Assembly: GCF_001975665.1 (NCBI RefSeq)
Contig: NZ_CP019419.1
Coordinates: forward strand, 124,001-188,000
DNA from: Polaribacter reichenbachii
Lineage (GTDB): Bacteria > Bacteroidota > Bacteroidia > Flavobacteriales > Flavobacteriaceae
Direction of reading: 5' to 3'
Length of the DNA stretch: 64,000 nt
In this document: positions 45,593-53,946 of the stretch, in pieces
Layout: each line of letters starts with the position of its first letter
Position numbering within the stretch: position 1 is the first letter of the stretch
The notes under the pieces: model-generated
Told to the model about the DNA's origin: nothing
Databases searched by the model: none
The model's input: the letters and a program-made list of their open reading frames with translations, nothing else
Program-made: the position numbers and the translations under genes

Positions 45593-45811
45593 TTATTTAC
45601 TATCCAAAATCATTTGTTTAATCTTAACTGCTTTTTCAAAATGATCTAATTGATGGGTTTCAATCCACCAAGTGGCAACTTGCATTAATAATTTTGGGTT
45701 ATCGTTTTTATTCTTGAAAAATGCGTAAAAAGACAAACCAACGTTGTCTCCTTTTTTAGCTATTTTATCATCACAAACTTGAATGATTTTTTCATTTATT
45801 TCTTTATTCAT
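45593..45811 (-). CDS. DUF6500-like small protein
   Basis: A 72-residue soluble protein: MNKEINEKIIQVCDDKIAKKGDNVGLSFYAFFKNKND, then PKLLMQVATWWIETHQLDHFEKAVKIKQMI. This resembles the family DUF6500, small helical proteins of unknown function often found next to aldehyde dehydrogenase genes. Its start (45811) overlaps the end of the dehydrogenase gene by 8 bases, so it is translationally coupled to it. Confidence 0.75.
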   Translation of the reverse strand: MNKEINEKIIQVCDDKIAKKGDNVGLSFYAFFKNKNDNPKLLMQVATWWIETHQLDHFEKAVKIKQMILDSK

Positions 45812-47246
45812 ATTGTATGCAAATATTTTTTGGTTCTGTAAAAAAACGTAAAGCTTCAAAACCACCTTCTCTTCCTACTCCACTATTTTTAACTCCACCA
45901 AATGCTGTTCTTAAATCACGTAACATCCAAGTATTTACCCAAACAATTCCGGTTTGTAATTGTTTAGAAAATTGCATTGTTCTGTTTAAATTGTTTGTCC
46001 AAACTGTTGCTGCTAATCCGTATTTGGTATCATTTGCTAAAGTTAAGGCTTCTTCATCAGTTTTAAAAGACATTATAGTTACAACTGGCCCAAAAATTTC
46101 TTCTTGATTCAGTTTACATTTATTATCAGAAACTTCAATAATTGTAGGTTGCAAATAATAGCCATTTTTGGAATTTTCTACTTCAACTTTGTTTCCTCCA
46201 AAAAGAATTTTACCACCTTCTTTTTCAGCAATATCAATAAAACTTTTTACTTTTTCTAAATGTTCTTTTGAAACTAAAGCACCTAAATCTGTATTTTCTT
46301 CCGATGGATGACCAACTTTTAATTCTGATACTTTTTTGATAAAATCTTTTTTAAATTTCTCATAGATAGTTTCTTCTATCAAAATTCGGCTACCACACAA
46401 ACAAATCTGACCTTGATTTGAAAATGATGAACGCACTGTTGTTGCTAACATTTTTTGATAATCGCAATCTGCAAAAATGATGTTCGGATTTTTACCACCC
46501 AATTCTAAAGACAATTTCTTAAACATTGGTGCAGCAATTTTAGCTATATGAGCACCTGTTTTTGTACCACCTGTAAATGAAATTGCTTTTATTTTTGGAT
46601 GTTCTATAATTGCTTGTCCTGTTGATGTTCCTAAACCGTGAACAATATTTAAAACTCCTTTTGGAAGGCCAGCTTCTGTACAAATTTCGCCTAATAAATA
46701 TGCAGTTGCTGGTGTAATTTCGCTTGGTTTTGCAACTACACAATTTCCTGCAGCTATTGCCGGAGCGATTTTCCATGTAAATAAATATAGAGGTAAGTTC
46801 CAAGGAGAAATACAACCAACAATTCCTATCGATTGTCTTAAAGTAAAATTAATTGCATTTAATCCTACGCTTTCGTGGGCTTCTGATGAAAACTGAGTTA
46901 TGGCATTTGCAAAAAACTTAAAGTTGCTTGCTGCTCTTGGTATATCTACTTTTTTTGCTAAACGGATTGGTTTTCCATTGTCTTTGGATTCAGCCTCAGC
47001 CAAAATATCTATTTTATCTAAAATTAAATCTGCAATCTTTGATAAAATTTTACTTCTTTTCTCTAAACTAGTATTAGACCATTTTGGAAAAGCTTCTGCT
47101 GCTGCTTTATATGCTTCTTCTACATCTTCTTTAGTAGAATTAGGTGTTTGTCCATAAACTTCACCAATTGCTGGGTTGTAATTATTTAACCAATTACCTT
47201 TAATTGGGTTTACAAATTTACCATTGATGTAGTTTTGTATTTTCAA
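45804..47246 (-). CDS. Aldehyde dehydrogenase, probably 2-aminomuconate-6-semialdehyde dehydrogenase
   Basis: A 480-residue ALDH of the hydroxymuconic/aminomuconic semialdehyde group: ISPWNLPLYLFTWKIAPAIA, FTGGTKTGAHIA, catalytic Glu in LELGGKNPNIIF and catalytic Cys in NQGQICLCGSRI; the end GGVKNSGVGREGGFEALRFFTEPKNICI is typical. It oxidises 2-aminomuconate semialdehyde with NAD+. Placement after ACMSD/HAO-type genes in the kyn cluster supports this rather than general aldehyde oxidation. Confidence 0.88.
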   Translation of the reverse strand: MKIQNYINGKFVNPIKGNWLNNYNPAIGEVYGQTPNSTKEDVEEAYKAAAEAFPKWSNTSLEKRSKILSKIADLILDKIDILAEAESKDNGKPIRLAKKVDIPRAASNFKFFANAITQFSSEAHESVGLNAINFTLRQSIGIVGCISPWNLPLYLFTWKIAPAIAAGNCVVAKPSEITPATAYLLGEICTEAGLPKGVLNIVHGLGTSTGQAIIEHPKIKAISFTGGTKTGAHIAKIAAPMFKKLSLELGGKNPNIIFADCDYQKMLATTVRSSFSNQGQICLCGSRILIEETIYEKFKKDFIKKVSELKVGHPSEENTDLGALVSKEHLEKVKSFIDIAEKEGGKILFGGNKVEVENSKNGYYLQPTIIEVSDNKCKLNQEEIFGPVVTIMSFKTDEEALTLANDTKYGLAATVWTNNLNRTMQFSKQLQTGIVWVNTWMLRDLRTAFGGVKNSGVGREGGFEALRFFTEPKNICIQYE

Positions 47247-47260
47247 TTGAATATTAAAAT

Positions 47261-47962
47261 TTAATTATAATTAAAGTATTTTTTTTCTAACCATTCCATA
47301 GGAATTTCTTGATTACAAAATTCTAAATGAATAACTCTTCTATCATTTTCTGAAATTGACTTTTGCGACGAATGCAACAATAAAGGTTTCATTAACATTA
47401 TACCTCCTTTACCTACATCACAAACTACTTCTTCTAACTCTTTAGATTCAAAAAAACAATTATCTAATCTGATTATTCCTTTTTTATGTGATTTAGAAAT
47501 TACTTTTAAAACTCCATTTGTTTTATCTGTTTTGTCTAAATGAATTCTAAAAGTTACTATATTTTTTAAAATATTTAAAGGTGGAATAACTCCTAATTGT
47601 CCTTTTTTATTTGTCCAACTATTAAAACCTTCTTCTTCTATTTTATTTTTTACACTAATGCTCAAATCTTGATGATAACTAACAAACCAATTCGATTTTG
47701 GTGGTTTGTTAAAGTAAATCGCTTTAGACAAAAAGTAACTTTCTTCACATATTGTTCTAAATAATTTCTTGAAATTATCGTTTTCAAAAATCAATTTTTC
47801 AATCTCTGGAAACCTATTTAATAATTGTCTTTCTGAAAAATTAAAATTATTATTTTCAACTATTCTGATAATTTTCCTCAAGACTTTTTCGCTAAAACAG
47901 TTTTCAATAATTGAAAATCCATTTTCATCTAAAGCTTTTTTATGTTGATAAAAATTTCTCAT
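47261..47962 (-). CDS. PhyH-like Fe(II)/2-oxoglutarate dioxygenase
   Basis: A 233-residue protein of the phytanoyl-CoA dioxygenase family. The iron facial triad is visible as H-x-D in SYHQDLSI and the distal His in MKPLLLHSSQKS; the 2-oxoglutarate Arg is probably in ENDRRVIHLEF. The N-terminus has the family start YQHKKALDENGFSIIENCFS. Substrate unknown. It is 14 bases upstream of the ALDH gene and in the same orientation, but is not a known kynurenine enzyme. Confidence 0.8.
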   Translation of the reverse strand: MRNFYQHKKALDENGFSIIENCFSEKVLRKIIRIVENNNFNFSERQLLNRFPEIEKLIFENDNFKKLFRTICEESYFLSKAIYFNKPPKSNWFVSYHQDLSISVKNKIEEEGFNSWTNKKGQLGVIPPLNILKNIVTFRIHLDKTDKTNGVLKVISKSHKKGIIRLDNCFFESKELEEVVCDVGKGGIMLMKPLLLHSSQKSISENDRRVIHLEFCNQEIPMEWLEKKYFNYN

Positions 47963-48024
47963 AAATTCGACACTTTTAATATTTAATAATAAAAAATTGT
48001 CTTGATGCCTGTTTCCAACTAATT

Positions 48025-48432
48025 CTATTTTTCTTTTTTATAAGCAGTTACCTTTATCTCCACAACCAAATCTGGGTGTGGTAATTGATGTACTGCAACT
48101 GTAGTTCTTGTTGGGCCTGTTTCCTTGTCAAAAAATTCTGCATAAGCTTTATTATAATCAGCAAAATCGTTCATATTTACTAAAAAACTAGAAACATCTA
48201 CTACATCATTTATACTTGCACCAACAGTTTTTAAATTTTTATCGATGTTTTTTAAAACTTCTTTTGTTTGTAAATAAGCATCTAATTTTTTTGTACCCAT
48301 TTCATCAATAATTACAACTCCAGCAATGGTATTATCTGCTTTTCTTGAACTTGTACCCGAAACAAAAATAAAATCTCCAACTACTTTTACGTGTGGATAT
48401 GCGCCTCTTGGTGTTACTTTTTTTTCTGACAT
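48025..48432 (-). CDS. RidA family deaminase, probably 2-aminomuconate deaminase-like
   Basis: A 135-residue Rid/YjgF/UK114 protein: [53 protein letters not shown], and [27 protein letters not shown], where the Arg is the imine-binding residue. Classic RidA deaminates 2-aminoacrylate; in kyn clusters the paralogue deaminates 2-aminomuconate, and its longer C-terminus fits that group. It is the last enzyme of the upstream half of the kyn cluster before the repeat-rich insertion. Confidence 0.85.
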
Positions 48433-48450
48433 ATTACTTTTTATAAATAA

Positions 48451-48481
48451 ACCTCACAGGTATTAAAAGCTTGTGTGGTCT
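48451..48481. repeat. Degenerate REP palindrome downstream of RAYT gene
   Basis: ACCTCACAGGT...AGCTTGTGTGGTCT, a decayed copy of the perfect palindrome at 49073-49105. It ends 7 bases from the RAYT stop codon. Confidence 0.7.
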
Positions 48482-48488
48482 AAATTAA

Positions 48489-49058
48489 TTATTCTAATAT
48501 TAATTCCTTTAATTTCTCGTCAAATTCTAATTTTTTATGAGCTAAATGATATTCAAAGTTTTCTAAATCTCCAAATAATAAAAGTACTTCTTCTCTTTTT
48601 AATAGTGTACTTTTTTCTGATAGTAAGGCTAAATATGAAGAATGCTTATATTGATTTAATTCTGTTACAAACTGATGATAAATTGGATTTAAATTAATAT
48701 AAATTATTAACTTTTTTAAGTATTCTTCATTTTCTACTTTAATTCTTTTAAATCTATCTCTAAATAAACTACCTGTTCTATTATACTTTTTATTAATCGA
48801 TTTTGAATACGCATTAAAAAAGTTAGAAAATGATTTAGATATTAATTTTTGGTCATCAATATCTTTGATTTGGATTAAAAAATGAAAATGATTTTTCAAT
48901 AAACAATAAGATAAAATCGATGCTATTGGATGAATATATTTCTTTGTCAATACTAAAAAATATGAATAATTTATGTCCTCACAAAAAATATTCTCGCCAT
49001 TATTTCCTTGATTGAAAATATGATAATAATTATTTGATTCTAGTACTTCGTATTTCAT
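48489..49058 (-). CDS. REP-associated tyrosine transposase (RAYT, Y1_Tnp)
   Basis: A 189-residue IS200/IS605-like transposase: YYHIFNQGNNGENIF at the N-terminus, the HUH motif H57-F-H59 in NHFHFLIQI, the GSLFRDRFKRI motif (97-107) and Tyr residues 113 and 120 in EEYLKKLIIYINLNP, one of which would be the nucleophile. The C-terminus after 145 is variable. It is flanked by REP palindromes 14 bases before the start and 7 bases after the stop, and appears intact. The domestication of RAYTs makes it single-copy in most genomes. Confidence 0.88.
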   Translation of the reverse strand: MKYEVLESNNYYHIFNQGNNGENIFCEDINYSYFLVLTKKYIHPIASILSYCLLKNHFHFLIQIKDIDDQKLISKSFSNFFNAYSKSINKKYNRTGSLFRDRFKRIKVENEEYLKKLIIYINLNPIYHQFVTELNQYKHSSYLALLSEKSTLLKREEVLLLFGDLENFEYHLAHKKLEFDEKLKELILE

Positions 49059-49072
49059 ATCCTTTATTTGGT

Positions 49073-49105
49073 AGACCTCACAGGTTTCAAAAACCTGTGA
49101 GGTCT
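49073..49105. repeat. Intact REP palindrome
   Basis: Perfect 15-base arms AGACCTCACAGGTTT / AAACCTGTGAGGTCT with loop CAA. It lies between the RAYT start and the DUF1697 gene, whose last codons and stop are part of it. Confidence 0.85.
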
Positions 49106-49620
49106 TTTGATAACTCTAATAATTTTAAAGTTGTTCTTAAATTTCTTGTTGTTGCAGTTACTTTTAATTTTTTTTCGATGCTATTATTTGTCAGTTTTGT
49201 TTTTGCAAATGTTGATGGGCAATTTAAATACACAACATCTCCATTTATTTTATATTTATCTTCTCCAATATTATTGATTTCAATTTCTGTAATTTCTGAT
49301 GCTTTGTCTAAAAAAGTAAAGGCAACTATTTTTTCGTTTTCTGTTGAAAACGGATAATTTTCAATTGCTTTTTTCCACTCTGGAATTGTTCTTGCAATTA
49401 CAGGAACATTAAACCCAAATTTATCTTTAATTGCGTCTCTTATAGTGTTACAAGTTGCTGATTTTGTTTTACTTGATTCTAAAATAATATTTCCACTTTG
49501 GATATATGTTTTTACATTTTGAAAACCTAAGCTGTTTAATAATTCTCGTAAATCTAACATTGGAATTTTGTTTTTTCCTGATACATTTATGCCGCGTAAT
49601 AATATGATAAATCTTTTCAT
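49087..49620 (-). CDS. DUF1697 family protein
   Basis: A 177-residue soluble protein of family DUF1697: MKRFIILLRGINVSGKNKIPMLDLRELLNSLGF, KTYIQSGNIILESS, VPVIARTIPEWKKAIENYPF, and TTRNLRTTLKLLELSKD. The family fold is related to ferredoxin-like alpha+beta proteins; function unknown. The final residues LTGF and the TGA stop are encoded by the right arm and loop of the REP palindrome (49087-49105), so the natural C-terminus was altered by the insertion of the repeat. Confidence 0.85.
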   Translation of the reverse strand: MKRFIILLRGINVSGKNKIPMLDLRELLNSLGFQNVKTYIQSGNIILESSKTKSATCNTIRDAIKDKFGFNVPVIARTIPEWKKAIENYPFSTENEKIVAFTFLDKASEITEIEINNIGEDKYKINGDVVYLNCPSTFAKTKLTNNSIEKKLKVTATTRNLRTTLKLLELSKDLTGF

Positions 49621-49639
49621 TAATTTACTTATTTTGTCT

Positions 49640-49659
49640 GTTCGAGCGCAGTCGAGAAC
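49640..49659. repeat. GIY-YIG-associated bulged palindrome, copy A
   Basis: On the minus strand GTTCTCGACTGCGCTCGAAC, whose first G is the last base of the GIY-YIG TAG stop. It is in inverse orientation to copy B. Confidence 0.8.
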
Positions 49660-49979
49660 TATTTATTATAAGGTTTATATTTATGATGAGTAACATTTCT
49701 ACATTCAGCTAAAATTTGTAGCATATCAAAATCATTGTTTGCTAAAGCTAATTTTTTCTTTGAACTCCATTTTTTTATTTTCTTTTCAAAATAAATTGCT
49801 TGTTCTACATCATTAAAAACTTGATGAAAAATTAATTCTAAAGGTCTTCTTTTAAAAGTAAAACAACCTTTGTTTAATCCATTTTGATGTTCTTCAAAAC
49901 GTCTTGCCATATTATTTGTAATTCCTACATAAAGCAAGTTATCCGAGCATTTTAATATGTATACATAATACGTTTTCAT
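49659..49979 (-). CDS. GIY-YIG nuclease family protein
   Basis: A 106-residue single-domain GIY-YIG protein (UPF0213/YhbQ-like): YYVYILKCSDNLLYVGITNNMARRFEEH gives the GIY-YIG core with the catalytic Tyr and Arg, and the metal Glu is in AIYFEKKIKKW. A basic C-terminal tail NVTHHKYKPYNK follows. Single-domain forms are common in flavobacteria, and their role is unknown. Palindrome B ends 6 bases before the start codon region and palindrome A touches the stop, so the gene has no room for other regulatory DNA. Confidence 0.9.
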   Translation of the reverse strand: MKTYYVYILKCSDNLLYVGITNNMARRFEEHQNGLNKGCFTFKRRPLELIFHQVFNDVEQAIYFEKKIKKWSSKKKLALANNDFDMLQILAECRNVTHHKYKPYNK

Positions 49980-49985
49980 AATTAA

Positions 49986-50005
49986 CCTCTCGACTGCGCT
50001 CGAGG
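49986..50005. repeat. GIY-YIG-associated bulged palindrome, copy B
   Basis: CCTCTCGACTGCGCTCGAGG on the plus strand; shares the 16-base core TCTCGACTGCGCTCGA with copy A. It is located just upstream of the GIY-YIG start codon. Confidence 0.8.
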
Positions 50006-50037
50006 AGACACTTTATATTGATTATTACTTTTTTCAT

Positions 50038-50057
50038 CCTCTCGACTGCACTTGAGG
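50038..50057. repeat. GIY-YIG-associated bulged palindrome, copy C
   Basis: CCTCTCGACTGCACTTGAGG, two differences from copy B within the 20 bases, same orientation. It lies 16 bases after the KMO stop codon on the minus strand. Confidence 0.75.
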
Positions 50058-50073
50058 TGACTCATAATTTGAC

Positions 50074-51486
50074 TTACAAACCTGCAATTTTATCTTCTTG
50101 CAAAATTTTATCTGTTTCGTGAATTACTTTATCTAAAATGCTTCTTAATTCTTCTTTTGTCATATTTAAATGGGTGTGTACTTCATCATCTACAATTAAA
50201 TTTAACAAGGCTTTGTCTTGGGCTCTACCTCTTTTCATTGCTTCATTATAAACAATATTTTCATTGAATGTAACTAATGAATATTTAGAAAAATATTGAT
50301 TAGGAAAGGTCTTTTCTAAATCCATTTCTATTTTTCTTTTTTCTTTAAACAACGGATTTGCAACGTGATCTCTCATTTCATAAAAGTTATCAATCGCTAA
50401 ATCTGCAATGGCATCTGTGTCTTTTTTTCTTGCTTTTTCGTAAGCTTTAAAAACAGATTTCCAATCTGATAATTCTTGGTTTAATATTTCATCGAACACA
50501 AAAACATCTTCGAAAGAAGCGTTCATTCCTTGTCCATAAAAAGGAACAATTGCGTGAGCTGCATCTCCAATTAACAGTGTTTTATTGAGATAAGACCAAG
50601 GAGAACATTTTACAGTGCCTAAAGCACCTGTTGGATTTTGTGAAAACTCCTTTTTTATATTCGGAATTAAAGCCAAAGCATCTGGAAATTCTTTTTCGAA
50701 AAACTCATTAATCTTTTCTGTAGTTGTTAAATTCTCGAAATTATATTCACCTTCATTGTAACTTAAAAATAGTGTTACTGTAAAACTACCATCTAAATTT
50801 GGTAAGGCAATTAACATAAAATCGCCTCTTGGCCAAATATGTAAATGACTTTTGCTTATTTGGTGATTTCCTGAATTATCAGCAGGAATTTCTAATTCTT
50901 TATAGCCGTGATTTAAATAGTTTTGCGAATAACTAAACAAGAATTTACGCTCAGAAATATAGCTTTTTCTTAAAGCAGAACCTGCACCATCTGCGCCAAA
51001 AATAACATCGGCTTTTACAAAAAACTTTCTTTTACTTTTATAATCTTTAAAATGAGCAATTGTATTTTCAATATCTACATTTTCGCAACTACTATTAAAA
51101 TGAATATTTACATTTTCGTGTTTTTCTGCTTCATCTAACAAAATGGCATTTAAATCGCCTCTAGAAATTGAATTGATGTACTCACCTTCTCTACCAGAAT
51201 AATTCGACTCAAAAGTATTGCCTTCTTTGTCGTGCATAAATCTGCCATACATTGGTATGCTAATTTCTTTTGCTTTTTTTTCCATTCCACATAATCGTAA
51301 GGCTTTTAAACCTCTATCTGATAATGCTAAATTTATAGATCTTCCTGCAGAAATATCAACCTTTCTTAAATCAGGTCTGCTTTCGTACAATTCTATTTTA
51401 TAGCCTCTTTGTGCCAATCTTAAAGCTAGTAAAGAGCCACATAAACCTGCTCCTATAATTAGTATTTTATCTTGTTTATTCATCAA
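50074..51486 (-). CDS. kmo: Kynurenine 3-monooxygenase
   Basis: A 470-residue FAD monooxygenase that makes 3-hydroxykynurenine from kynurenine with NADPH. FAD motif ILIIGAGLCGSLLALRLAQRG, then AGRSINLALSDRGLKALR (KMO-specific), ISRGDLNAILL, FGADGAGSALR and the second FAD motif LLIGDAAHAIVPFYGQGMNASFEDV. The C-terminal membrane-type helix region found in eukaryotes is replaced by a soluble end. It overlaps the S41 peptidase gene by 11 bases. Full length for bacterial KMO. Confidence 0.95.
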   Translation of the reverse strand: MMNKQDKILIIGAGLCGSLLALRLAQRGYKIELYESRPDLRKVDISAGRSINLALSDRGLKALRLCGMEKKAKEISIPMYGRFMHDKEGNTFESNYSGREGEYINSISRGDLNAILLDEAEKHENVNIHFNSSCENVDIENTIAHFKDYKSKRKFFVKADVIFGADGAGSALRKSYISERKFLFSYSQNYLNHGYKELEIPADNSGNHQISKSHLHIWPRGDFMLIALPNLDGSFTVTLFLSYNEGEYNFENLTTTEKINEFFEKEFPDALALIPNIKKEFSQNPTGALGTVKCSPWSYLNKTLLIGDAAHAIVPFYGQGMNASFEDVFVFDEILNQELSDWKSVFKAYEKARKKDTDAIADLAIDNFYEMRDHVANPLFKEKRKIEMDLEKTFPNQYFSKYSLVTFNENIVYNEAMKRGRAQDKALLNLIVDDEVHTHLNMTKEELRSILDKVIHETDKILQEDKIAGL

Positions 51487-52690
51487 TTAATTCTAATGCT
51501 TTTAAATACGTTTCTTTATAACTATTTGTTGTAAAATCGGGTTTAAAATGTTCTCTAGGTAAACCATTTACATTGTATAATTTCTCAAAAGGATAGCAAA
51601 ACCGAATTCCTGAATTCTGCAATTGTTTACACTTAATTGCTCCTAATAATTTTGCCATTGTTGTACCTACAACTGTTACATTTTCCATATTAGAAAAACC
51701 TTGAGCTATGGCTTCTCCTACTGAACCTGTCCATCTACTTACCAAAACATAAACTGGTTTTTTATATGGATTTTTAAGTGGTGATAATAGTTCTATATAT
51801 TTTCTTTTGATGCCAAACGCCCTTTCTAAACCTACTCTTTCGTGAATTTGATAAGGCATTTCTTCTTTTATAAATTTGCCCATTATTGACTTTGCAACAT
51901 CTGTATTGCCACCATTTGCAGTGTTTCTTAAATCGATTATGATGGCTTTACTGTTGTGCAGACTGTTGTGCAGACTGTCTACTGCCTTTGGAAATTGTTG
52001 AATTAAATTATTATTACCTAAAGAATTATTGATTCTAATATAACCAATATTTCCTGACAATAATTTATAATCTAAAAGTTTTGAATTGTATTTTTTAAGA
52101 TTAGGTTTTGGCAGTTTTAAAGTGATGAATTTACCTTTGCGTAAAACTTTAATTTTTCTAGGTTGATTATGCCTGCCAGCAAAAATCAAATTAGCAAAAT
52201 ATTCTTTTACTTTATTGTCTGGTTTTTTTATAGAAATTGGTAGATTTTTTTTTACCAAATCTTTAAATGATGTATCATTTACTACTATAAGTTCATCGTC
52301 AATTTTTAGATTAAATTTTTTAATTGTATAATTATCTCTGATGTCTGTAATATAATATTTATTATTTTTTAGGGATACAAAAGCATCTACATCATTAGGA
52401 ATTAAACGAAATGAAAACGCAAGATTTTTATTTAATGTAAAATGAGCATCATAAAGTTCGTGTTTCATTAGCTCGATTAAATAGGTAAACTCCCAATCTT
52501 CTTTTATCGAATTTAGACGTTTGCTATATACCTCTTTTACCTTCTGCCAATTGGTTTGTTTTGCATCAAAATAGGCATATTCTGTATTTATGGTTTCCCA
52601 GAAATAATTGAAATCAGACAAATATTTACTTTGAGAAAAAGCAGCAAAAGACTGTAAAATTAGGCAAATAGCAATGATGTTCTTTCTCAT
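51476..52690 (-). CDS. Exported S41 family peptidase between KMO and kynureninase
   Basis: A 404-residue protein with a signal peptide (NIIAICLILQSFAAFSQ), an N-terminal helical IRBP-like region (about 22-105), a PDZ-like part (about 115-170) and a C-terminal S41 catalytic core with YIRINNSLG, IIDLRNTANGGNTDVA, and Ser in SRWTGSVGEAIAQGF. A nine-base duplication gives SLHNSLHNS. It overlaps kynU by four bases (ATGA) and kmo by 11, so it is a full member of the operon although not a known kynurenine enzyme. Its substrate is unknown. Confidence 0.85.
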   Translation of the reverse strand: MRKNIIAICLILQSFAAFSQSKYLSDFNYFWETINTEYAYFDAKQTNWQKVKEVYSKRLNSIKEDWEFTYLIELMKHELYDAHFTLNKNLAFSFRLIPNDVDAFVSLKNNKYYITDIRDNYTIKKFNLKIDDELIVVNDTSFKDLVKKNLPISIKKPDNKVKEYFANLIFAGRHNQPRKIKVLRKGKFITLKLPKPNLKKYNSKLLDYKLLSGNIGYIRINNSLGNNNLIQQFPKAVDSLHNSLHNSKAIIIDLRNTANGGNTDVAKSIMGKFIKEEMPYQIHERVGLERAFGIKRKYIELLSPLKNPYKKPVYVLVSRWTGSVGEAIAQGFSNMENVTVVGTTMAKLLGAIKCKQLQNSGIRFCYPFEKLYNVNGLPREHFKPDFTTNSYKETYLKALELIDE

Positions 52691-53946
52691 AAAATACCCT
52701 TTAAAATTGAAACCATTTTATAAACATCTTCAAAGGAATTATACATTGGTGTTGGTGCACAACGAATTACATCTGGTTCTCGCCAATCTGTGATAATATT
52801 TTTTTCTGTTAATTTTTGATGCAAACTTTTATCGGTATTTTTTACTTGTATAGACAATTGACAACCTCTTTCTTTGGGATTTTTTGGAGTGATAATTTTA
52901 ATGTCTTCAGCACCAATTTCATCAATTAAAAACTCAAAATAACCTGTTAGTTTTTCTGATTTTTCTCGTAAAGCATCCATTCCAATTTCATCAAACAAAT
53001 CTAAAGATGCTTTTATGGCTGCCATTGATAATATTGGCGGATTTGACAATTGCCAACCTTCTGCACCTTCCATTACATCAAAAGGCATTCGCATATTAAA
53101 ACGTGTGGATTTGTTATGATTCCACCAACCTGCAAAACGTGGTAAATCTTTATTTTTAGCATGTTTTTCGTGCACAAACAAACCTGCTAAACTTCCAGGA
53201 CCAGAGTTTAAATATTTGTACGTGCACCAAGCTGCAAAATCGACACCAGAATCGTGTAAATTGGGTTGAATATTTCCTGCTCCGTGAGCTAAATCTATAC
53301 CAACAACACAATCTTTTGAATGCCCTATTTCTGCGATTCTTTTAAGATCTAAATACTGACCTGTGTAATAATTTACGCCTCCAATTAATAGCAATGCTAT
53401 TTCATCTCCTTGATTTTCAACAATTTTTTCTAAATCATCAATATTTAATAATGCTGACCCTTTTCTTGGTTTCCATTCAATGACATCATCCTCAGAAAAA
53501 CCGTGGAATTTTAATTGTGATTGCACTGCATATCTATCTGATGGAAAAGCATCTGACTCAATTACAATTTTATATTTAGATTTTGTTGGTCTGTAAAACG
53601 AAACCATTAGCAAATGTAAATTTGTTGTAAGCGTATTCATAACCACAACTTCTACGGGTTTTGCACCAACAATTTTTGCCATTTTATCCGTTAAATATTC
53701 GTGATAATGCAACCACGGATTTTTAGCTTCAAAATGACCTTCTACGCCTAAATTTGCCCAATCTTCTAATTCTTGATTGATATATTCTTTTGTAGATTTT
53801 GGCTGTAAACCCAAAGAATTTCCTGTAAAATACAACCAATCATTTCCGTTTTTATCTTTAGGAATGTAAAATTGATTTCTTAAATAAGCTAGTTGGTCTT
53901 CTTTATCTAATTGTTGGGCAAAAGCCAATGAATTTTTGTATTTCAT
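52687..53946 (-). CDS. kynU: Kynureninase
   Basis: A 419-residue PLP enzyme that cleaves (3-hydroxy)kynurenine to (3-hydroxy)anthranilate and alanine. Family motifs: YFTGNSLGLQPKST, NTLTTNLHLLMVSFYRPT, DLAHGAGN, PLP lysine in WCTYKYLNSGPGS and FAGWWNHN, and WQLSNPPILSMAA. It is the first gene of the operon and has a good promoter upstream. Full length; the start is supported by the -7 box 23 bases before it. Confidence 0.97.
   Translation of the reverse strand: MKYKNSLAFAQQLDKEDQLAYLRNQFYIPKDKNGNDWLYFTGNSLGLQPKSTKEYINQELEDWANLGVEGHFEAKNPWLHYHEYLTDKMAKIVGAKPVEVVVMNTLTTNLHLLMVSFYRPTKSKYKIVIESDAFPSDRYAVQSQLKFHGFSEDDVIEWKPRKGSALLNIDDLEKIVENQGDEIALLLIGGVNYYTGQYLDLKRIAEIGHSKDCVVGIDLAHGAGNIQPNLHDSGVDFAAWCTYKYLNSGPGSLAGLFVHEKHAKNKDLPRFAGWWNHNKSTRFNMRMPFDVMEGAEGWQLSNPPILSMAAIKASLDLFDEIGMDALREKSEKLTGYFEFLIDEIGAEDIKIITPKNPKERGCQLSIQVKNTDKSLHQKLTEKNIITDWREPDVIRCAPTPMYNSFEDVYKMVSILKGIL

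Follow-up and report, generated by a model that had tools for sequence, protein, structure and literature searches.

The window, a 64-kb stretch of DNA covering positions 124001-188000 of a 4.125-Mb single-contig genome (G000), carries a small GIY-YIG nuclease gene set between two inverted copies of a palindromic repeat, with a third, degraded copy beyond the 5' end of the gene. These features are located as follows.

49635..49659, minus strand: palindromic repeat A (class a), forming the unit's outer end 3' of the gene; it consists of TGTC (49635-49638 on the plus strand), one nucleotide, outer pairs GT/AC, a TCGA/TCGA stem, a six-base loop and a two-nucleotide bulge, TC.
49659..49979, minus strand: gene for a GIY-YIG nuclease of 106 aa, UPF0213/COG2827-like, identified as an ORF with a domain match.
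49986..50010, plus strand: palindromic repeat B (class a), inverted relative to A and forming the unit's outer end 5' of the gene; outer pairs CC/GG, tag GACA at 50007-50010.
50038..50062, plus strand: extra copy C, decayed, a direct repeat of B; core with two mismatches, tag GACT.

The pattern TCTCGACTGCGCTCGA matches A (49642-49657, minus strand) and B (49988-50003, plus strand) without mismatches and C (50040-50055, plus strand) with two. At up to three mismatches, only 0.02 matches are expected per 64 kb and three copies were reached in none of 100 shuffles, which rules out a chance origin of the three palindromes. A and B form inverted arms (49635-49657 and 49988-50010) whose match runs out to TGTC and GACA, and we therefore take the unit to span 49635-50010 (376 bp). 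One base of the stop codon is shared with the outer pair of A, while the outer pair of B (49986-49987) lies six bases upstream of the start, so that the preliminary description of this DNA, which had A touching the stop and B in inverse orientation six bases before the start, was accurate. It had also placed three hairpin copies around the gene; all three are present, but C has a broken stem and GACT in place of GACA. Oriented like B, C is probably a relic.

The unit lies among kynurenine-pathway-looking genes (45804-53946), some of which flank it in several other genomes. We take these neighbors to encode an aldehyde dehydrogenase (45804-47246), a RidA-like protein (48025-48432), a kynurenine monooxygenase-like protein (50074-51486) and a kynureninase-like protein (52687-53946). 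A Y1_Tnp/RAYT-like gene (48489-49058, minus strand; region 48436-49104) is located 600 bp from the GIY-YIG unit and has an inverted palindrome of its own, ACCTCACAGGTTT..AAACCTGTGAGGT, at 49072-49105, with a decayed copy at 48448-48481. It looks inserted, as its flanking genes are adjacent without it in a genome of the same genus (G131). We ruled it out as the source of the class-a palindromes, from which its ACCTCACAGGTTT palindromes differ.

A profile search identified the 106-aa ORF as PF01541 (GIY-YIG; E = 1e-19), in agreement with the gene first proposed. PF01541 was its sole domain match: the Y1/HUH transposase domain (PF01797/NF047646) was absent from the gene, and NCBIfam models gave no matches to it. 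Residues Y7, Y17, G19, R27, H31 and E65 (window numbering), most of which are presumably the catalytic positions of GIY-YIG enzymes, are kept in 143 to 146 of 146 aligned proteins, and all are intact in the window gene. The structure predicted for the window protein (pLDDT 89) has its nearest solved folds in the UPF0213 proteins BH0048 (1zg2; E = 2.6e-5) and EF2693 (1ywl; E = 1.2e-3). Fold, length and motif residues are common to the window protein and these members of UPF0213/COG2827, whose solved structures are titled hypothetical or UPF0213. The next match, a weak one (E = 7.5e-3 and up), was Slx1, a eukaryotic structure-specific nuclease that is larger than the window protein and was solved with Slx4; its entry titles name branched DNA and 5' flap substrates, which would suit a hairpin or cruciform.

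Class-a repeats are dispersed in the window's own genome, with 20 matches at up to two mismatches and none to a reversed control pattern. We examined covariation in 116 class-a copies that came from the fetched class-a loci and were distinct by their 40-bp context. The two pairs next outward from the TC bulge, -1/+1 and -2/+2, are complementary in 113 of 116 copies each (44 and 55 expected if independent) and use GC, CG, AT and TA, so the covariation suspected from the window holds well beyond its three copies; in the same sample, positions -3 and -4 do not pair. One free base 3' of the hairpin is followed by a tag, GACA, at +4 to +7 (112, 112, 109 and 109 of the 116 copies), which the preliminary description had missed while correctly recognizing a bulged hairpin. 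The tag of class a is thus GACA/TGTC and not GTAG, and it leaves TGTC facing outward on both A and B. As the outer pairs covary and are followed by a free base and GACA, we describe the class-a repeat as TGTC-N-bulged hairpin, an architecture of the tagged-REP kind. It is covariation that supports the stem and not folding energy, since A, B and C, folded singly as free single-stranded DNA, do no better than shuffles.

The repeats also occur in pairs. In nine genomes with fully listed places (for G000, 19 of 20 places entered, the omitted one having no neighbor within 100 bp), 38 class-a pairs lie within 100 bp, with both tags outward in 30, both inward in 3 and a direct arrangement in 5. The outward pairs have spacers of 13 to 33 bp, a REPIN-like arrangement with the same geometry as the gene unit. 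Inward of the dispersed G000 copies, by eye, the sequence is unshared beyond the repeat save for about 10 nt in one copy. A reading of the palindromes as terminators only was rejected: the downstream copy could terminate, but the inverted upstream copy and the dispersal would stay unexplained.

This anatomy is that of REP/RAYT systems and REPINs, in which a bulged hairpin with a tag likewise flanks a small gene in inverted copies and recurs around the genome, alone or in inverted dimers, with compensatory changes in the stem and few gene copies per genome. The REP/RAYT-like layout with a GIY-YIG enzyme, suggested at the outset, is therefore borne out by the inverted tagged repeats and the dimers. 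The differences are the enzyme, GIY-YIG without a Y1 domain, and the tag, TGTC/CGTC versus GTAG; hence the window gene is not a RAYT, and is RAYT-like by anatomy. With insertion sequences and MITEs, the GIY-YIG units share terminal inverted repeats.

The family survey comprised 149 genomes, 71 of which encode a GIY-YIG protein at E ≤ 1e-10 and 68 of which carry a class-a repeat (at most one mismatch); the reversed control pattern matched once across all 149. Bracketing was scored, with no motif assumed, by comparing the 200 bp before a gene with the 200 bp after it and taking the best inverted repeat; the cutoff was a score of at least 13. Of the family's 72 small GIY-YIG genes, 35 reached the cutoff and 37 failed it; in control windows displaced by 600 bp at the same loci, it was reached in 2 of 140 (Fisher test, 1.4e-17). 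At a score of at least 12, 41 of the 72 genes were bracketed.

Besides class a, the flanking palindromes comprise classes c1 (TGTCATTCCTGC..GCAGGAATCT, also given as TGTCATTCCTGC..GCAGGAATCCA), c2 (CGTCACCCTGAACTTGTTTCAGGGT), c3 (the GTCACTGCGCAC type), d (TGTCACCCTGAGCTTGTCGAAGGG), a2 (CTGAGCGCAGTCGAAG) and b (the long TGTCANTTCGAGTG..TTCTCGATACAA type). With labels assigned at up to two mismatches per side and orientation scored except for class b (16 genes), an identical class stands on both sides of 50 of the 69 genes whose proteins have at least 80 aa (19 of 69 unlabeled), so it is not the case that the gene usually lacks flanking palindromes. Placed on the protein tree, the seven classes require six changes, which is the minimum, compared with a mean of 28.8 for shuffled labels (none of 200 shuffles as low); one class per protein clade could partly reflect plain coinheritance. 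In G000 itself, each of the three small GIY-YIG genes has a class of its own (a, b and c1).

Bracketing extends to relatives in other phyla. From 578 confirmed loci we took the best 80, fetched with an alignment of c1/c2/c3 proteins and hence, the query being c1-like, biased to c1-like proteins; one (L158) was too short and was omitted. Among these best 80 of 578, 48 of 79 relatives scored at least 13 and 31 failed the cutoff, versus 1 of 289 shifted windows (Fisher test, 8e-38). Of 192 neighboring ORFs, five reached the same score, two of them GIY-YIG genes themselves, so that the comparison with non-GIY neighbors stands at 48 of 79 versus 3 of 190 (Fisher test, 3e-28). As these three also lie between such repeats, bracketing alone can be chance in repeat-rich DNA. 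The motif [CT]GTC stands at the outer ends of both arms in 30 of the 48 bracketed relatives among the best 80 of 578 and of at least one arm in 35, compared with 2 and 3, respectively, for the inner ends; genes bracketed without the tag include those of a Gastranaerophilales (L191), an Oscillospiraceae (L206) and a Clostridia (L210) record. By record title, bracketed genes come from, among others, Bacteroidetes genera, Bradyrhizobium and other alpha-, beta-, gamma- and deltaproteobacteria, Chloroflexi, Omnitrophus, LCP-89, Doudnabacteria, Gracilibacteria, Ignavibacteriaceae and Calditrichaeota. Three plasmid-borne genes were examined; those of Azospirillum lipoferum and Novosphingobium aromaticivorans lie between CGTC repeats, and that of Rhizobium sp. 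K1/93 has repeats on the downstream side only.

Repeat and gene also co-occur across genomes. Of the 19 genomes that have a clade-a gene (a few of these genes being broken), 18 carry class a, versus 44 of 121 without the gene (Fisher test, 1e-6); it occurs at three or more copies in 18 of 19 versus 29 of 121 (3e-9), so the palindrome is not equally frequent in genomes lacking the gene; nine genomes of the a2 clade, six of them with the repeat, were set aside in this comparison. Genomes with a clade-a gene have a median of 13 class-a copies and up to 116. For class c1, the corresponding counts are 18 of 19 versus 48 of 130 genomes (Fisher test, 1.2e-6).

Di Nocera et al. (2013, PMC3733652) divide REPs into a GTAG and a CGTC superfamily. 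According to that paper, the CGTC tag frequently reads TGTC or CCTC, dimers are predominantly head to head, and the superfamily takes in Neisseria dRS3 and Rickettsia RPE-4 and RPE-6; the CGTC repeats flank none of the tyrosine transposase genes examined and "apparently lack a dedicated transposase." The paper assigns no enzyme to CGTC repeats, and the word GIY-YIG is absent from it. Its CGTC hosts include A. lipoferum, Sinorhizobium meliloti, N. aromaticivorans and Neisseria, and we found c1-like GIY-YIG matches in all four. The unpaired CGTC/TGTC/CCTC end is shared by class a and by the arms of the relatives, and head-to-head predominance is shared in that 30 of 38 class-a pairs have their tags outward, if, as we read the description, this equals head to head. 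The superfamily is further described by a stem of 8 to 9 bp opening with A-T pairs, a loop of 4 to 5 nt and a CCA tail; these are not found in class a, whereas class c1 and some proteobacterial arms resemble that description by eye. As its stem is shorter, bulged and without the first A-T pairs, class a is at most a further family of the CGTC superfamily. Elsewhere, PMC9465073 mentions GIY-YIG (in a gene table) and REP apart and unlinked, and PMC6006769 cites Di Nocera for CGTC only. In the open-access library searched, no paper listed connects GIY-YIG genes with REPs in its title or the opening of its abstract, and a prior description in subscription papers or preprints is possible.

The association of gene and palindrome is firmly supported, and the activity is a prediction. 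The best explanation, in our view, is that these GIY-YIG genes do for TGTC/CGTC repeats what RAYTs are thought to do for GTAG repeats, by an unrelated chemistry. We consider it likely that the GIY-YIG unit is an autonomous "REPtron" of TGTC/CGTC repeats, its gene encoding a small structure-specific nuclease dedicated to its own palindrome. From the sequences we infer binding, nicking, copying and mobilization, as well as this protein as their agent. The palindrome would be extruded as a hairpin on the lagging-strand template or as a cruciform, and the GIY-YIG protein would recognize hairpin, bulge and TGTC tag and nick at or beside the tag. The nick might then start the excision or copying of a single repeat, a repeat pair (a REPIN-like dimer whose tags face outward) or, in rare cases, the entire gene unit, and the copy would be placed elsewhere, mostly in intergenic DNA, through repair and ligation by the host. 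More broadly, we lean slightly toward the proposal that small stand-alone GIY-YIG nucleases constitute a second, chemically unrelated class of REP-mobilizing enzymes, the missing enzymes of the whole CGTC/TGTC superfamily in many bacterial phyla, in which each clade would coevolve with its hairpin and a GIY-YIG enzyme would carry out transposition on DNA hairpins.

Comparisons between close relatives bear on mobility. On plasmid AZO_p3 of A. lipoferum (L213), a GIY-YIG gene between complete CGTC repeat dimers parts sufB from sufC by 617 bp. In Azospirillum ramasamyi, Azospirillum oryzae and Azospirillum sp. B510 (96.5, 95.9 and 95.4% identity, respectively, of aligned sequence to A. lipoferum), sufB and sufC are 87 to 129 bp apart, without the A. 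lipoferum repeats (B510 has another hairpin there), and the span is similarly short in eight more Azospirillum rows. The preliminary description had suggested looking for empty sites in close strains; the A. lipoferum unit is absent from three relatives, but none of the sites is base exact. The sufB-sufC spacer is too diverged for exact insertion boundaries, and neither a target-site duplication nor a base-exact empty site was obtained from the Azospirillum, S. meliloti, Rhizobium and purL comparisons. For a dimer on S. meliloti pSymB, 125 records were compared; the top 59 rows (S. meliloti, S. kummerowiae and S. medicae; alignments not individually inspected) covered the query to 99 to 100% without gaps, and row 60, Sinorhizobium sp. 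K101, aligned poorly and gave no clean empty site. Next to its GIY-YIG gene, Rhizobium sp. K1/93 exceeds L51/94 by one dimer, and the surroundings differ too. The Novosphingobium pNL2 unit had no relatives in the plasmid collection. On Rhizobium plasmids (L212 and L219) we observed, adjoining the GIY-YIG gene, long CCTC-tagged dimers of about 135 bp with a conserved spacer, whose number varies between close plasmids.

That the A. lipoferum gene is flanked by dimers, not single repeats, counts against our best explanation. A rival reading is a homing endonuclease, which we regard as improbable. Here, a free-standing homing gene would invade the spacer of existing repeat dimers, REP-REP being the empty and REP-gene-REP the filled site, while another agent spreads the repeats. 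GIY-YIG is a homing-nuclease fold, the unit has dimer geometry with the gene replacing the 13- to 33-bp spacer, and target specificity would account for each clade having its class. However, homing should fill many dimers, and gene copies are few (two matches in G131 with its 116 repeats; three in G000, of different classes). In addition, complete dimers stand on both sides of the A. lipoferum gene, three relatives retain no such repeat at sufB-sufC, and an enzyme for the repeats would still be needed, none having been found.

The dedicated-nuclease explanation must also accommodate the stability of the class-a unit. It is syntenic in G131, and a match to the gene at 45804-47246 stands beside the unit in 6 of 29 loci compared; as neighboring genes are kept in several genera, the unit looks long resident, as has been said of RAYTs. 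Such conserved surroundings would also suit a domesticated, host-side nuclease that processes hairpins or acts against repeats, with the palindromes as autoregulatory or terminator sites. In most class-a units the upstream core ends 7 to 29 bp before the start and the downstream core begins at or near the stop, so the palindromes may well affect expression. We nevertheless hold a host-side role to be quite doubtful, given that copies of these palindromes lie scattered and in pairs at other places in the genome and that a unit and a dimer are present or absent between relatives.

Other enzyme types served as controls. Among 30 fetched Y1_Tnp loci of the family, 23 were tested; 7 of these scored at least 13, and none of the 7 has the tag at the outer end of its upstream arm. 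A GIY-YIG control set of 18 small and 15 larger loci gave 15 and 6 results, respectively: 8 of the 15 small genes are bracketed (three of the 15 control loci, L229, L240 and L244, are already among the 72 family genes) and none of the 6 others (144 to 401 aa), UvrC-like genes of about 600 aa, too long for the fetched stretch, falling outside the testable set.

Some genomes have repeats and no matching gene. At least five class-a copies are present in 21 of the 121 genomes without a clade-a gene. A PF01541 check of 16 repeat-bearing genomes found the small GIY-YIG gene absent from G080 (38 copies), G097 (17 copies) and G015 (9 copies; 84% complete) and only a 72-aa GIY-YIG fragment in G021 (6 class-a copies). 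G084 has 35 class-a repeats and 10 outward dimers and yet only a c-type GIY-YIG gene. A c1-clade protein at E ≤ 1e-20 is absent from G096 (21 c1 copies) and G131 (17), and G006 has a c-type match with six stops along with 22 c1 repeats. The repeats in gene-less genomes may be relics after gene loss or may be served by another enzyme; the interrupted match in G006 suggests the former. That another transposase, a RAYT or some other, moves the repeats and the small GIY-YIG genes are passengers in repeat-rich gaps is very unlikely, despite repeat-rich genomes such as G080, G097 and G015, given that neighboring genes are rarely bracketed (3 of 190), that each clade has its own class, that none of the seven inverted repeats among the 23 Y1_Tnp loci is so tagged, and that PMC3733652 reports no association of CGTC repeats with transposase genes.

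If correct, the dedicated-nuclease explanation would provide a concrete small enzyme candidate for CGTC repeats, including dRS3 and RPE-4/6, and would predict, genome by genome, which protein belongs to which palindrome, so that a few oligonucleotides and some purified protein would suffice to test it. It would also mean that the REP lifestyle, in which a resident enzyme is accompanied by many tiny hairpins, evolved on two occasions with nucleases that are not related, and would give a function to the widespread small "GIY-YIG nuclease family proteins."

Several repeats lie inside coding sequence or arrays. Four class-a repeats (L010, at G000:C1:3788289-3788304, and L004, L005 and L007) are in frame within long ORFs of G000. 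One of the four lies in the linker of a protein that we take to be PurL; in G153, of the window's genus, this linker instead holds a palindromic dimer of a different type (TGTC..GACA), likewise in frame. As the linker length varies, this looks like replacement, not a clean insertion. In L033 (G002:C12, about 574765-575064), a GIY-YIG gene lies inside a regular repeat array with a spacing of about 60 bp on both sides. In Neisseria gonorrhoeae NZ_CP119140.1 (L312), a small GIY-YIG gene without a listed feature lies inside a dRS3-type array (CGTCATTCCCGC..GCGGGAATC), and hence the same pairing may explain dRS3.
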